From positions 1-64,000 of the forward strand of contig NZ_RHOD01000005.1 in the NCBI RefSeq assembly GCF_003946095.1: a stretch of DNA of 64,000 nucleotides, written 5' to 3'. Each line of letters starts with the position of its first letter. Position 1 is the stretch's first letter. Under the pieces are notes generated by a model. The model made no database searches, was not told the DNA's origin, and saw only the letters and a program-made list of their open reading frames with translations. Source of the stretch: Levilactobacillus lindianensis. Lineage in GTDB: Bacteria > Bacillota > Bacilli > Lactobacillales > Lactobacillaceae. Both the position numbers and the translations under genes were made by a program. Shown here piece after piece: positions 7,243 to 41,673 of this stretch.

Positions 7243-7430
7243 GGATCGCCTCCAGCGGTCGTGGGGTGTCATCCTATGAGGCACGCCTGAAGCCAAAGGG
7301 CGGTCTTCGGGCTCAGCTTCAAGCCCCACAAGGGGCGTGGGTCTTAAAACTGGCCTATGCTGTAAGACCGGATAAGTCGCCGGCCTAACAGCATCGACAC
7401 AGGATGGCGTCTGCTGGCCGCAGGCGCTCC
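7243..7430 (-). ncRNA. candidate structured RNA element, copy A (about 188 nt)
   Basis: No plausible protein is encoded here. Read on the minus strand, a terminal stem (GGAGCGCCT with AGGCGATCC, then CCAGC/GCTGG, then CATCCT/AGGATG) encloses three hairpins. Hairpin III at 7357-7394 pairs ATGCTGT with ACAGCAT and CCGG with CCGG. Hairpin II at 7314-7352 pairs CAGTTTTAAG with CTTGAAGCTG, then CCCAC with GTGGG. Hairpin I is at 7285-7312. A second copy at 39218-39403 keeps the layout with compensatory changes. Across both copies, G-U pairs favour the minus strand about five to one. I do not recognise the class. It sits between divergent genes. Confidence 0.7.
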
Positions 7431-11169: not shown

Positions 11170-12684
11170 ATGGCATTAAAACAGCCAGAAAATTACCTCT
11201 TGGCGATTGACCAAGGGACCAGTAGCACGCGGGCACTTATCTTTGATCACACCGGCCGTAAGGTGATTGAGGCCTACAAGGAAGTTCCCCAATATTATCC
11301 GCATACGGGTTGGGTTGAATCCGACGCTAATGAGATCTGGAACAGCGTCCTGTCGGTGATTGCGAGCGCTCTGATCGACGCGTCCATTCATCCGGAAAAT
11401 ATTGACGCCATTGGGATTAGTAGCCAACGGGAAACCACAATCGTTTGGGATAAGATTACCGGTGAGCCTATCTATCACGCCATTGGGTGGCAAAGTCAAC
11501 AAACAGCCTCGATGGCTAAGGACTTAGTTGCCGCGGGCAAGGCCGAAACCATTAAGGACAAGACCGGCCTCGTGGTCGACGCCTATTTCAGTGCGACTAA
11601 GGTACGTTGGATTTTGGATCATGTTCCGGGAGCTCAGGAACGCGCCGAGAATGGCGATCTGTTATTTGGGACTGTTGACAGTTGGTTGGCCTGGAAGCTT
11701 TCCGGTGGGAAGATTCACGTCACCGATTACAGTAATGCCAGCCGGACCATGCTCTTTAACATTCATGAGTTAAAGTGGGATACGGACATTTTGAACTGGC
11801 TCAACATTCCGGCGGCCATGTTGCCAACGGTAAAGTCCAGCTCCGAAGTCTACGGTGTGACCCAGAACTTCCAGTTCTATGGGGTGGAAGTGCCGATCGC
11901 CGGGATTATTGGTGACCAATCGGCAGCGCTCTTGGGACAATTGGCTATCGAACCCGGGAAGGTTAAGAACACGTACGGGGATGGGGCCTTCGTTATGATG
12001 AATACCGGGAAGGAACCCCAGACCTCTAAACACAATCTCTTAACGACGATTGCTTATAAAATGAATGGTGAGGTTACCTATGCTCTTGAAGGGTCAATCC
12101 TGGTAGCCGGGACCGCATTGGCTTGGTTACATGAAAGCATGCAGATTATCAATAACGTGCCAGAGTCTCGACAGGCGGCGATGGCGTCCACGGATAATGA
12201 TGAAGTTTACGTGGTACCAGCCTTTAACGGTCTCGGGGCACCATACTGGGATCCCGATGCCAAAGGGGCGGTCTTCGGTCTCTCCCGGGGAACCAACCGG
12301 AATGACTTCGTGAAGGCAACACTCCAGTCGATTGCCTACCAGACACGAGACGTGCTTCACACCATGAAGCAGGATACCGGGATTGACATCTCGGAACTGA
12401 TGGCTGATGGTGGGGCCTCCCGGAACCGTTATCTGATGCAATTCCAAGCCGATATCCTGGCAACCCCGGTTCAACGGGCGGCCGATGAAGAAACGACGGC
12501 CATGGGGGCGGCCATTGCGGCCGGCCTAGCCGTTGGTTTCTGGCAGAGTCTCGATGAGATTAAGGAAATTCGCAGTGCCGGTCGTTTGTTCACGCCAAAT
12601 ATGGCAGAAGATCGTCGGGCCCGGTTGTATGCGGGTTGGCAACAGGCTGTTGCGGCAACGCGAGCATTTAAACCGGATCTTTAA
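11170..12684 (+). CDS. glpK: glycerol kinase (GlpK)
   Basis: FGGY-family kinase, 504 residues, phosphorylating glycerol to glycerol 3-phosphate. The [14 protein letters not shown] loop, QRETT (glycerol-binding Arg87-Glu88), GDQ with catalytic Asp249, and the [10 protein letters not shown] and DGGASRN motifs are present. GGAGGGAG precedes the ATG. Odd point: the activation-loop His that HPr phosphorylates in enterococcal GlpK (H232, motif YHFYG) is Gln here (FQFYG, residue 235), so PTS activation by His phosphorylation should not occur. A cre site lies in the promoter. The glycerol facilitator gene (54887-55594), also with a cre site, is 42 kb away, so the glycerol genes are dispersed. Confidence 0.96.
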
Positions 12685-18307: not shown

Positions 18308-18360
18308 TCTAAGAAGCGTTGACGATTGGGTATTTCCTGTTATGCTGGAAGTAACCAGAA

Positions 18361-18451
18361 CACTAGGGGTGTCCGTTAATTGGGCTGAGATGCGTGTTGC
18401 ACGCGATCCCTTGGAACCTGTCAAGTTCACACTTGCGAAGGGAATGTGTCG
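18361..18451 (+). promoter_or_regulatory. TPP riboswitch (THI box)
   Basis: CACTAGGGGTG, GGGCTGAGATG, CCCTTGGAACCTG and the closing GAAGGGAATG are in canonical order for a thiamine pyrophosphate riboswitch. It precedes thiM-thiD-thiE and is followed by a terminator hairpin, so TPP probably stops transcription of the operon. Confidence 0.93.
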
Positions 18452-18460
18452 TGATACCGT

Positions 18461-18507
18461 AACGGGTCACCGGTTCACCCACATTGTGAGCTGGTGACCC
18501 GTTTTTT
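18461..18507 (+). terminator. riboswitch-controlled terminator
   Basis: AACGGGTCACC pairs with GGTGACCCGTT, the stem extending inward through TTCAC/GTGAG, followed by T6. It lies about 60 nt ahead of the thiM start and is the probable expression platform of the TPP riboswitch. Confidence 0.88.
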
Positions 18508-23427: not shown

Positions 23428-23808
23428 ATGGATTTTGTTGATCTGAAGCCGATTGCGTTGCGTCATACACCGTTAGGCACACGGGGACAGACCCCGAAGG
23501 AACACGATTGGCAATTAGACTGGGATAAATTGGCGGCTCTGATTCGGGATAATCAGGACGTCATGGCGGTGGTTCAGGCTGGTTTGGCCGAGGACTGGCT
23601 GAATACGCAAGGTACTATTTGGGATGAGAATTTAGGCTATTACCGCTATCCAAATGACAACCGTGAACCGGACGACACCGTATTTTGGGCGGCGTCTACC
23701 TGGGCAACACCGGCGATCTTGGTGACTTTCCACAATGAACTGACGGCATCGTTTGCCTGTTACCGGGAAGGCCGCGATCCGGATTTTCATTACTTGGGGC
23801 GAAATTAA
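23428..23808 (+). CDS. hypothetical protein at the end of the SOS operon
   Basis: 126 residues, acidic and Trp-rich (about seven Trp), no signal peptide or membrane helix, no motif I recognise. It starts 26 nt after the YolD-like gene, with a perfect GAGGAGG site, on the same strand and without a terminator between, so it should be LexA-controlled too. A terminator lies about 105 nt beyond its stop. A role in damage tolerance is inference from position alone. Confidence 0.7.
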   Translation: MDFVDLKPIALRHTPLGTRGQTPKEHDWQLDWDKLAALIRDNQDVMAVVQAGLAEDWLNTQGTIWDENLGYYRYPNDNREPDDTVFWAASTWATPAILVTFHNELTASFACYREGRDPDFHYLGRN

Positions 23809-28940: not shown

Positions 28941-29126
28941 TATTCTGATTGGCTTAGCTGGATTCAGAAATGAATGATTGAATGGACTGCTTGGGATGAT
29001 GTTATGGGCCAATTGGAAAGTAGGAAAACGTGAGACAGCTAGTGATTGGTAACCATTGATCCTAGCCGGAGTCCCTGGTAGCCGTAGTGGTCAATCTAAC
29101 GCCGAAGCCATCTTTCAAGTCAAAAG

Positions 29127-39182: not shown

Positions 39183-39211
39183 AGCCTGCCTGCGGTCACC
39201 GGACGCCACCC
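39183..39211 (-). repeat. outer arm motif near structured element copy B
   Basis: On the minus strand this reads CAGGGTGGCGTC then CGGTGACCGCAGGC. It matches, with about four differences, the arm CAGGATGGCGTC-TGCTGGCCGCAGGC at 7400-7425 of copy A, where it is on the plus strand. A third weaker match, CAGGACGGCGTCTG, lies on the plus strand at 39540-39553. Confidence 0.45.
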
Positions 39212-39217
39212 TGTGGG

Positions 39218-39403
39218 GGGGTACGCGGTGCACGATCAGAAGCTTCGTCCTGTGGGGCACGTCCGAAGCCAAAGGGCGGTCTTCGAACTCGTCTTTAAGC
39301 CCCAAAGTCGTGGTCTTAAAGACGTCCCGTGCTGTAAGGTCGAAGAATCACCGACCTAACACCACCGACACGGGACTGCACTTCTGACCGTGCACCGCTA
39401 CCC
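39218..39403 (-). ncRNA. candidate structured RNA element, copy B (about 186 nt)
   Basis: Second copy of the element at 7243-7430. The terminal stem pairs ACGCGGTGCACGATCAGAAG (39223-39242) with CTTCTGACCGTGCACCGC (39381-39398) and shares no sequence with the stem of copy A. Hairpin I at 39261-39288, hairpin II at 39290-39324 (CGTCTTTAAG with CTTAAAGACG, perfect), hairpin III at 39329-39365 (AGGTCG with CGACCT). Loop and joining sequences such as CCGCCCTTTGG and TTAGG are shared with copy A. It lies between the divergent YfhO and response-regulator genes. Confidence 0.7.
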
Positions 39404-39610
39404 GCACAATGTGTTTTTGAGGAAGTTATTTGAAATCGAATTTAGTTGGAGGTAGTCAGACTGAGTCTTGTCGCGACTTAACACACGGTCAACTTTGAAA
39501 TTCGCCGATTGTGCGAAGTCTAAGGCTGGCCGGAAGCCCCAGGACGGCGTCTGATTGCCCCCAGTGAACAATCTAAAACAAAAAAGACAAATTCAAAGGA
39601 GGAATGCCCG
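39404..39610. other. upstream region of the two-component operon
   Basis: About 200 bp without a coding signal. It contains the arm-like motif at 39540-39553, which could pair GGCGTC with GACGCC at 39202-39207, enclosing copy B in a larger fold. AGGAGG at 39598-39603 serves the TTG start of the response regulator. Confidence 0.4.
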
Positions 39611-40303
39611 TTGAGTACGACTGCCAAAGTATTGGTCGTGGAGGACGAACGTGAGTTATCCGCGGACATTGTGGAATTAATTAGACCGATTTGTGAGACG
39701 ACCACCGCATTTGATGGCGAACAAGGTGAATTTTTAGCTAGTCAGGGCGTGTTTGACGCCATTATTTTGGATCTGATGTTGCCTGGCGAAAGTGGGCTGG
39801 ACCTCCTGCTACACATCCGCAACAAGGGGATCAAGACGCCGGTACTCATCTTAACGGCCAAGGATACGATTGCCGACAAGTTGCGGGGCTTCAATGATGG
39901 GGCCGACGATTACGTGACCAAACCCTTTCACCGTGAAGAACTGTTAGCCCGCATGAAGGCACTATTGAAGCGTACGGGGCATTTGAATAGCAGTGATGTT
40001 ATTACGTTAGGACAACTGGAGATTAACACCAGCAAGCATTTAGCGACCTTTGACGGCCAACCGTTGACGTTGAAGGGTCGTGAATTTGATTTACTGGCCT
40101 ATCTCGTGGCCAATCCGGGAACAATTATCACCAAGGAACAGATTTTCAATCGGCTCTGGGGCTTTGATTCTGAGACCTCACTTTCTGTGGTTGAGGTCTA
40201 TATGAGTAATCTGCGAAAGGAACTCAAGCACGCCGGCAGTGATCTTTCGCTGCGGACGATTCGCAATGCCGGTTACATTGTGGAGGCCCCTGATGAGCAA
40301 TAA
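39611..40303 (+). CDS. OmpR-family response regulator
   Basis: 230 residues: receiver domain (about 1-120) with acidic pocket VVEDE, phospho-acceptor Asp in AIILDLMLPGESG and Lys in ILTAKD, then a winged-helix Trans_reg_C domain (about 130-228, LTLKGREFDLLAYL, RLWG...VEVYMSNLRKEL). It uses a TTG start behind a perfect AGGAGG with 8-nt spacing. The histidine kinase gene overlaps its last 11 nt. Targets cannot be read. Confidence 0.92.
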   Translation: MSTTAKVLVVEDERELSADIVELIRPICETTTAFDGEQGEFLASQGVFDAIILDLMLPGESGLDLLLHIRNKGIKTPVLILTAKDTIADKLRGFNDGADDYVTKPFHREELLARMKALLKRTGHLNSSDVITLGQLEINTSKHLATFDGQPLTLKGREFDLLAYLVANPGTIITKEQIFNRLWGFDSETSLSVVEVYMSNLRKELKHAGSDLSLRTIRNAGYIVEAPDEQ

Positions 40304-41635: not shown

Positions 41636-41673
41636 AACCGCATCTGCCTTATTTGAGGTGGCTGCGGTTTTTG
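41636..41673 (+). terminator. terminator of the two-component operon
   Basis: AACCGCA...TCTGCCT and AGGTGGC...TGCGGTT pair around TATTTG, followed by a T-run. Confidence 0.82.

Follow-up and report, generated by a model that had tools for sequence, protein, structure and literature searches.

The window analysed in this study, a stretch of 64,000 nucleotides of the Levilactobacillus lindianensis genome (contig NZ_RHOD01000005.1, positions 1 to 64,000), carries two folded elements on its minus strand, copies A and B. Copy A (7245..7427), flanked by genes for a tyrosine phosphatase and an alpha/beta hydrolase, is a type I three-hairpin element that scored 144.6 bits with the covariance model described below and was aligned with the same place in G007 (L. 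humaensis), G032 (L. paucivorans) and G031. Copy B (39222..39400), located between a YfhO gene and a response-regulator gene, is an intact type I element and the left member of a divergent pair, and was identified by a model score of 169.5 bits and by alignment with relatives. The genes neighbouring the two copies are functionally unrelated. Folding energies corresponded to z-scores of -5.1 (minus strand) and -5.7 (plus strand) for copy A and of -8.2 and -7.1 for copy B, and none of 200 shuffles reached any of these values. An earlier note on this DNA, made from the letters alone, had described both copies and their common fold; the model matches and z-scores bear this description out, and the stems that it quoted, together with the exchange of an inner stem to GTCG/CGAC, are present in the sequence.

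Remnants of further copies were also found. The plus-strand partner of copy B (39443..39568, 28.9 bits, with alignment as further evidence) is a degenerate type II element upstream of the response-regulator gene at 39611, truncated in the window and whole in G007 and G032. Adjoining copy B is a minus-strand remnant (39188..39218) of an older type II element, namely its outer 3' end, and a short plus-strand remnant (29061..29087) retains terminal-stem ends only, with a whole copy at the same place in G032. At the place of copy A, both G007 and G032 hold a full divergent pair, and comparison with G007 traces the 5' arm of the copy A terminal stem to the 3' end of a deleted neighbouring copy; judged by this alignment, copy A is a deletion fusion of the former pair, with type I hairpins and the terminal arm of its lost type II partner. 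Of 30 genomes compared, 14 carry a copy no more than 130 bp ahead of the response-regulator gene that flanks copy B, always oriented like the gene, and five others carry one at a greater upstream distance; the position is therefore an old one. Of the same number of genomes, just L. lindianensis, G007 and G032 have a copy in the 1 kb preceding the phosphatase gene that flanks copy A.

Near window position 41668, the orthologous copies of G032 and G007 (L235 7307-7497 and L239 8152-8336) share the terminal stem and differ in the hairpins inside it, a sign of interior exchange between copies. Near position 23808, G032 has a short copy (L236 4435-4581) with a different long terminal stem, and L. 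lindianensis has none. The sole Rfam match of the window is a TPP riboswitch at 18355-18461 on the plus strand (68.9 bits). A BLASTN match at 12253-12282, inside an FGGY kinase gene, was discarded as chance.

Fold and covariation of the element family

The element is about 180 nt long (about 150 nt in short forms), and one strand of it folds into a long terminal stem, with the ends AGCCGGAGG and CCGCAGGCGGC, which encloses three hairpins with fixed mismatches. Subtypes exist, and by eye they include the form of about 150 nt without hairpin 2 and a rarer form without hairpin 1. Nineteen full copies from the L. lindianensis genome were aligned, for which RNAalifold gave 51 pairs, 31 of them with two-sided changes, and the covariance model was trained on these 19 copies, copies A and B included. 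Because only copies from this genome entered the model, distant subtypes are under-counted by it.

A multi-genus alignment of 38 copies, including 10 from other genera, was made on sequence alone, and RNAalifold gave 65 pairs, of which 57 had changes on both sides. On this structure 94.6% of cells paired, versus 76.3% when shuffled, and 488 cells changed on both sides, versus 135. The covariation score was 0.555, compared with 0.199 for shuffled alignments (0 of 500 as high), which ignore relatedness, and with 0.063 to 0.102 for slid versions, a control that favours the structure because it was derived from that same alignment. All seven helices, among them the long terminal stem, contained pairs with two-sided changes. 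A number of unpaired positions hardly vary across the alignment; the T-T mismatch that the earlier note had called conserved is one of them and is T opposite T in all 38 copies. A wobble bias towards the minus strand, also claimed there, was recovered as well: read on the window-minus strand, 118 cells were G-U and 35 A-C, or 79 and 35 after removal of two pairs whose commonest type is G-U. This excess implies that one strand matters, as RNA or as single-stranded DNA, and folded single-stranded DNA could give the same bias as RNA. The earlier note had not recognised the class and had called for an Rfam search; neither copy matched any Rfam 15 family at gathering scores, and noise only was seen at E up to 10.

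Copy number, distribution and layout

With copy A as query, BLASTN gave 22 matches in the L. lindianensis genome (G000, 2.33 Mb in 67 contigs), and the covariance model gave at least 87 at E up to 1, reverse-strand mirror hits counted in. In 461 kb of this genome, 82 model matches at E up to 1 corresponded to 63 places after mirror hits and one 38-nt fragment had been set aside. The earlier note had presented the candidate as a two-copy element; more than 60 copies in 461 kb of this genome alone replace that picture with a large, genus-wide dispersed family. When the best 45 candidates per genome were considered, the model matched at least 33 of 35 Levilactobacillus genomes, with a single match in G015, none in G021 and G031, and none in 23 genomes of the order that lie outside Lactobacillaceae. 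The search of Lactobacillaceae that had been proposed alongside the original description yielded matches at E up to 1e-6 in at least 80 of 397 genomes and at least 8 of 40 genera (best 6 candidates per genome), and the homologues covary as detailed above. The named holders of the exact core motif were Levilactobacillus and Lactiplantibacillus species and one Deltaproteobacteria contig (L093), where the covariance model finds nothing and the motif match is attributed to chance. The family is a large, dispersed, mostly intergenic folded repeat of Lactobacillus-type bacteria, apparently undescribed.

In L. brevis CD0817, at least 145 matches were obtained (145 of the best 150 of 1094 candidates), and a local search of 800 kb found 82 copies, which at roughly 175 nt each make up about 1.8% of the DNA examined and, by proportion, give an estimate of about 300 copies for the genome. 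The CD0817 record starts at a dnaA-like gene, as read by eye. Among the matches listed, the origin-proximal quarter of this chromosome holds 24 of 145 strong copies, where about 36 are expected (P 0.01). This scarcity near the origin, the finding of copies on chromosomes only in the collections searched and the lack of a conserved promoter or terminator would suit a DNA-level chromosome element, in which replication or supercoiling lets the strand fold as single-stranded DNA or a cruciform, to which a structural or repair protein binds. Such an element is nevertheless improbable, given that the uneven placement is mild, that the members of a pair fold on opposite strands and so have no fixed relation to replication, and that no protein is known for it. 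SbcC-like matches, a weak test, were obtained in all 35 genomes without exceeding the curated cut-off, and did not track the copies.

The position of copies relative to genes was assessed with gene calls from a simple ORF heuristic. In L. brevis, 67 of 82 copies overlapped ORFs by less than 10%, versus 10.1 expected at random, and 12 lay by more than half inside heuristic ORFs; 58 of 61 copies in L. lindianensis and 58 of 64 in G007 were intergenic. The L. lindianensis copies formed 21 divergent pairs with 5' ends facing within 1 kb (spacers measure 41-353 bp in 19 and 875 bp in one, and one pair overlaps), no convergent pair and 21 single copies, and L. brevis showed 24 divergent pairs with spacers of 69-326 bp, two tandem pairs and again no convergent one. 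Divergent pairs were seen in other genera too (loci L227, L231, L233 and L234). Pairs are not the sole layout, since 98 cross-genome matches included tandem neighbours in another genus (L224) and in Levilactobacillus (L063, L065, L075, L086 and L221). Only five matches of 16-31 bp were detected among 44 pair spacers. Terminator-like structures occurred in the spacers of 3 of 20, 3 of 21 and 0 of 24 pairs, too few for a spacer terminator to be the rule. A rule of heterotypic pairing was likewise set aside, as it was seen only in L. brevis (one same-type pair versus 6.2 expected, P 0.005) and not in L. lindianensis or G007.

Copies are over-represented between convergent genes, with 26 of 82 in L. 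brevis (where gaps of this kind number 115 of 568), 23 of 59 in G007 and 15 of 57 in L. lindianensis. Gaps between divergent genes hold 3 of 82 copies in L. brevis, a strong depletion that is weak or absent in L. lindianensis (8 of 57) and G007 (14 of 59) and was rejected as a general rule.

The divergent pairs first suggested that copies act only as 5' leaders, an idea that was dropped because neighbouring genes occur in either orientation: the downstream gene is opposite to the copy in 36 cases and in the same sense in 26 in L. lindianensis (n=62), and the figures for L. brevis are 50 and 32 (n=82). The consistent sense position upstream of genes that marks a cis-regulatory leader was found in neither genome, and a single effect on genes is accordingly not evident. 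Around 206 copies there was no conserved promoter (promoter-like sites lay outward in 11 and inward in 15) and no conserved terminator or T-run. A cis-regulatory leader, or an independent small RNA of known mode such as a riboswitch-like one, would account for the elaborate covarying fold with its nearly fixed unpaired bases and for those copies found 130 bp or less ahead of start codons, but it is very improbable in view of these orientations and flanks, the lack of an Rfam match and the unrelated genes beside copies A and B. What holds of the structured RNA proposed in the earlier note is the conserved, covarying minus-strand fold; the independent RNA gene of about 190 nt is not supported, no promoter or terminator being conserved.

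Transcription terminator Rho had no match in any of the 35 Levilactobacillus genomes; across Lactobacillaceae it is present in 7 of 40 genera (81 of 397 genomes). Copies as a backup for missing Rho were rejected, as Rho and copies occur together in genomes of genus g55. No trans factor for the copies was found among Y1 transposase, Rho and SbcC.

Persistence, loss and mobility of the copies

Matching of 3' flanks identified 32 orthologous positions between L. lindianensis and G007, the 38-nt fragment among them. In seven composites the copies were 91.1% identical (88.4% counting gaps), the spacers 79.8% (67.0%) and the DNA 200-800 bp away 92.0% (89.3%). Change in the copies is about as slow as in the gene-bearing DNA nearby, and the spacer decays. 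Nearest paralogues were 85-88% identical at the median, with a few up to 98.7% alike, and the 22 orthologues kept averaged 93.7%, a mean raised by their selection (at least 80% identical and at most 12 gaps, 10 being dropped); homogenisation is therefore not the main cause of the slow change.

In the 22 orthologues, 18 two-sided changes were counted, versus 5.1 expected, and 13 of them keep pairing, although 10 of the 13 come from two loci about 83% identical and may represent conversion. In a strict set of 20 orthologues at least 90% identical, there were six two-sided changes, versus 1.7 expected (P 0.004), only three of which preserve the pair. Single changes in this set kept the pair in 32 of 61 cases and broke it in 29, where pair-keeping is expected in about 36% by a transition-weighted estimate from the larger set; G-U members numbered 34 and A-C members 17. 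Interiors were swapped at four orthologous places. Constraint in place is well supported by the rate and modestly by the pairing. One contig of the L. lindianensis assembly (C1) is 100% identical over 20 kb (G000:C1:40001-60000, L141) to G032:C114, aligned stretches of the two genomes being about 85-90% identical elsewhere, as a result either of recent transfer or of a mis-assigned contig in one assembly, and the comparison is for this reason partly one of L. paucivorans with L. humaensis in effect.

G031 is about 80-90% identical to L. lindianensis in aligned stretches, and no match was found in it among the best 45 of 355 candidates or, with laxer filters, in 103 kb. At the places of copy B and of composite C1:40201-40598, G031 has kept the outermost ends and lost the interior; copy A and C1:56314-56872 correspond to scrambled or partial remnants, which are less certain, and two other sites have no clear scar. 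The simplest reading is that G031 lost its copies, perhaps after the loss of a needed factor, a role for which neither Y1 transposase nor Rho is suited. Presence also differs between L. lindianensis and G032 at several window sites, and the differences include losses, since at one site L. lindianensis retains a remnant.

The main rival to selection in place is that of dormant parasitic repeats, MITE- or BOX-like, which spread non-autonomously in the past, used the fold for mobilisation and now merely persist. It is a realistic if doubtful possibility, for the copies are numerous and mostly intergenic, are over-represented between convergent genes, as reported for pneumococcal repeats in the available text of PMC3049150, include copy B nested beside an older copy and a few very similar paralogues, differ in presence between near species and are missing from one lineage. 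Against it, the copies decay far more slowly than the spacers, and target-site duplications are not in excess: none of at least 6 bp was found at 66 composites (control 1.4%), and they occurred at 1.5% of 206 single copies versus 0.9% of controls, with no excess over shuffled flanks. Searches of 72,556 plasmid and 50,697 phage records with copy A and an L. brevis copy found no match, a short form had none in plasmid records and the core motif had none in viral contigs, which also speaks against a parasite; plasmid coverage of the genus may be thin, as an IS200 gene taken as a control from the chromosome that carries the L. brevis copy finds 25 plasmid records of which one is from Levilactobacillus. 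Nor does the IS200-type TnpA track the copies: Y1_Tnp, the sole transposase family profiled, occurs in 23 of 35 genomes, with no match in copy-rich G032, three in G031 and one in G021, both copy-less, and dependence on IS200/RAYT was rejected on this distribution. Compared as candidate terminal inverted repeats, the outer ends of the 66 composites match on average at 6.8 of 14 positions, true partners being no more alike than shuffled ones.

We tentatively favour the explanation that the repeat is an old, dispersed one whose copies are now retained by selection acting on one folded strand, which would be read by a dispensable factor. The copies would have arisen by an old, slow copying process and would now be kept where they are by selection; the folded strand, either read-through RNA or single-stranded DNA, would be bound by a putative host factor, and, this factor being dispensable to the cell, a lineage that loses it would lose its copies. 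The covariation, the one-strand bias, the divergent pairs without convergent ones, the old positions, the rate in place, the two-sided changes of the strict set, the scars in G031 and the lack of copies in the plasmid, phage and viral collections argue for this explanation. The broken pairs of the strict set, the possible conversion, the swapped interiors at four places, the polymorphic presence in near species, the mixed orientation of neighbouring genes, the small number of spacers with terminator-like structures and the failure to find a trans factor, promoter or terminator argue against it. Its weakest step is the effect, which might be to insulate gene ends, for instance by stopping or trimming transcripts that run from the gap into a neighbouring gene, a proposal we consider unlikely. 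A more general version, in which hundreds of chromosome-restricted, back-to-back elements would constitute a genome-wide class of folded signal, selected in place and served by a dispensable trans-acting factor whose loss erases the set, is somewhat unlikely.

Although L. brevis and related species are bacteria commonly met in food, the structure that takes up about 1.8% of the 800 kb examined has no Rfam match. Whether dispersed folded repeats are parasites or working parts is an old question that this family allows to be tested cleanly: sister species have positions in common, a near relative appears to have lost its own copies, and pairs can be deleted one at a time. Identifying what reads the copies would open up a new RNA- or single-stranded DNA-binding system or a new mechanism of mobility.

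Comparison with known systems

The attC sites of integrons are divergent in sequence, fold as a single strand with fixed mismatches and have one strand recognised. The present elements resemble them in divergent sequence, one folded strand and fixed mismatches, but are not tandem cassette ends, and an attC or gene-cassette nature was rejected because a 20-kb stretch with ten copies is collinear in gene order with copy-less G031. REPINs are extragenic folded repeats arranged in inverted pairs, of which one strand is recognised, and REP/REPIN systems with RAYT share with our family the extragenic, folded and inverted-pair arrangement. They differ in that the Y1 transposase is missing where copies abound (G032) and occurs where there are none (G031 and G021), and in length, REPs being 20-40 bp according to the accessible part of PMC3733652 and the present elements about 180 nt.

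No earlier description of the family was found in the literature searched, which included few subscription journals, so that one may exist elsewhere. The available portions of a MITE review (PMC10969869) and of Breaker-type RNA surveys (PMC8632094, PMC2864571) name no such family, and the available portion of the CD0817 genome paper (PMC6534642) counts 214 interspersed repeats and describes none.

In kind, the closest systems are bcr1 and the BOX, RUP and SPRITE repeats. In the accessible text of PMC2267715, bcr1 of the Bacillus cereus group is a dispersed repeat of 167 bp with a predicted shared secondary structure, similar in dispersal, length and predicted fold; going by the table description given there, the pairing layout and multi-genus spread set the present family apart. 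BOX, RUP and SPRITE of Streptococcus pneumoniae were judged parasitic and slow to move by their describers, and the accessible sections of PMC3049150 present them as high-copy, folded, intergenic repeats that are frequent between convergent genes, nested and slow to move. Our family shares with them high copy number, intergenic position, folding and low mobility, and is set apart from these descriptions by its length of about 180 nt, its three-hairpin fold that covaries across genera, its divergent pairing, the lack of an excess of target duplications and its gene-like conservation in place.
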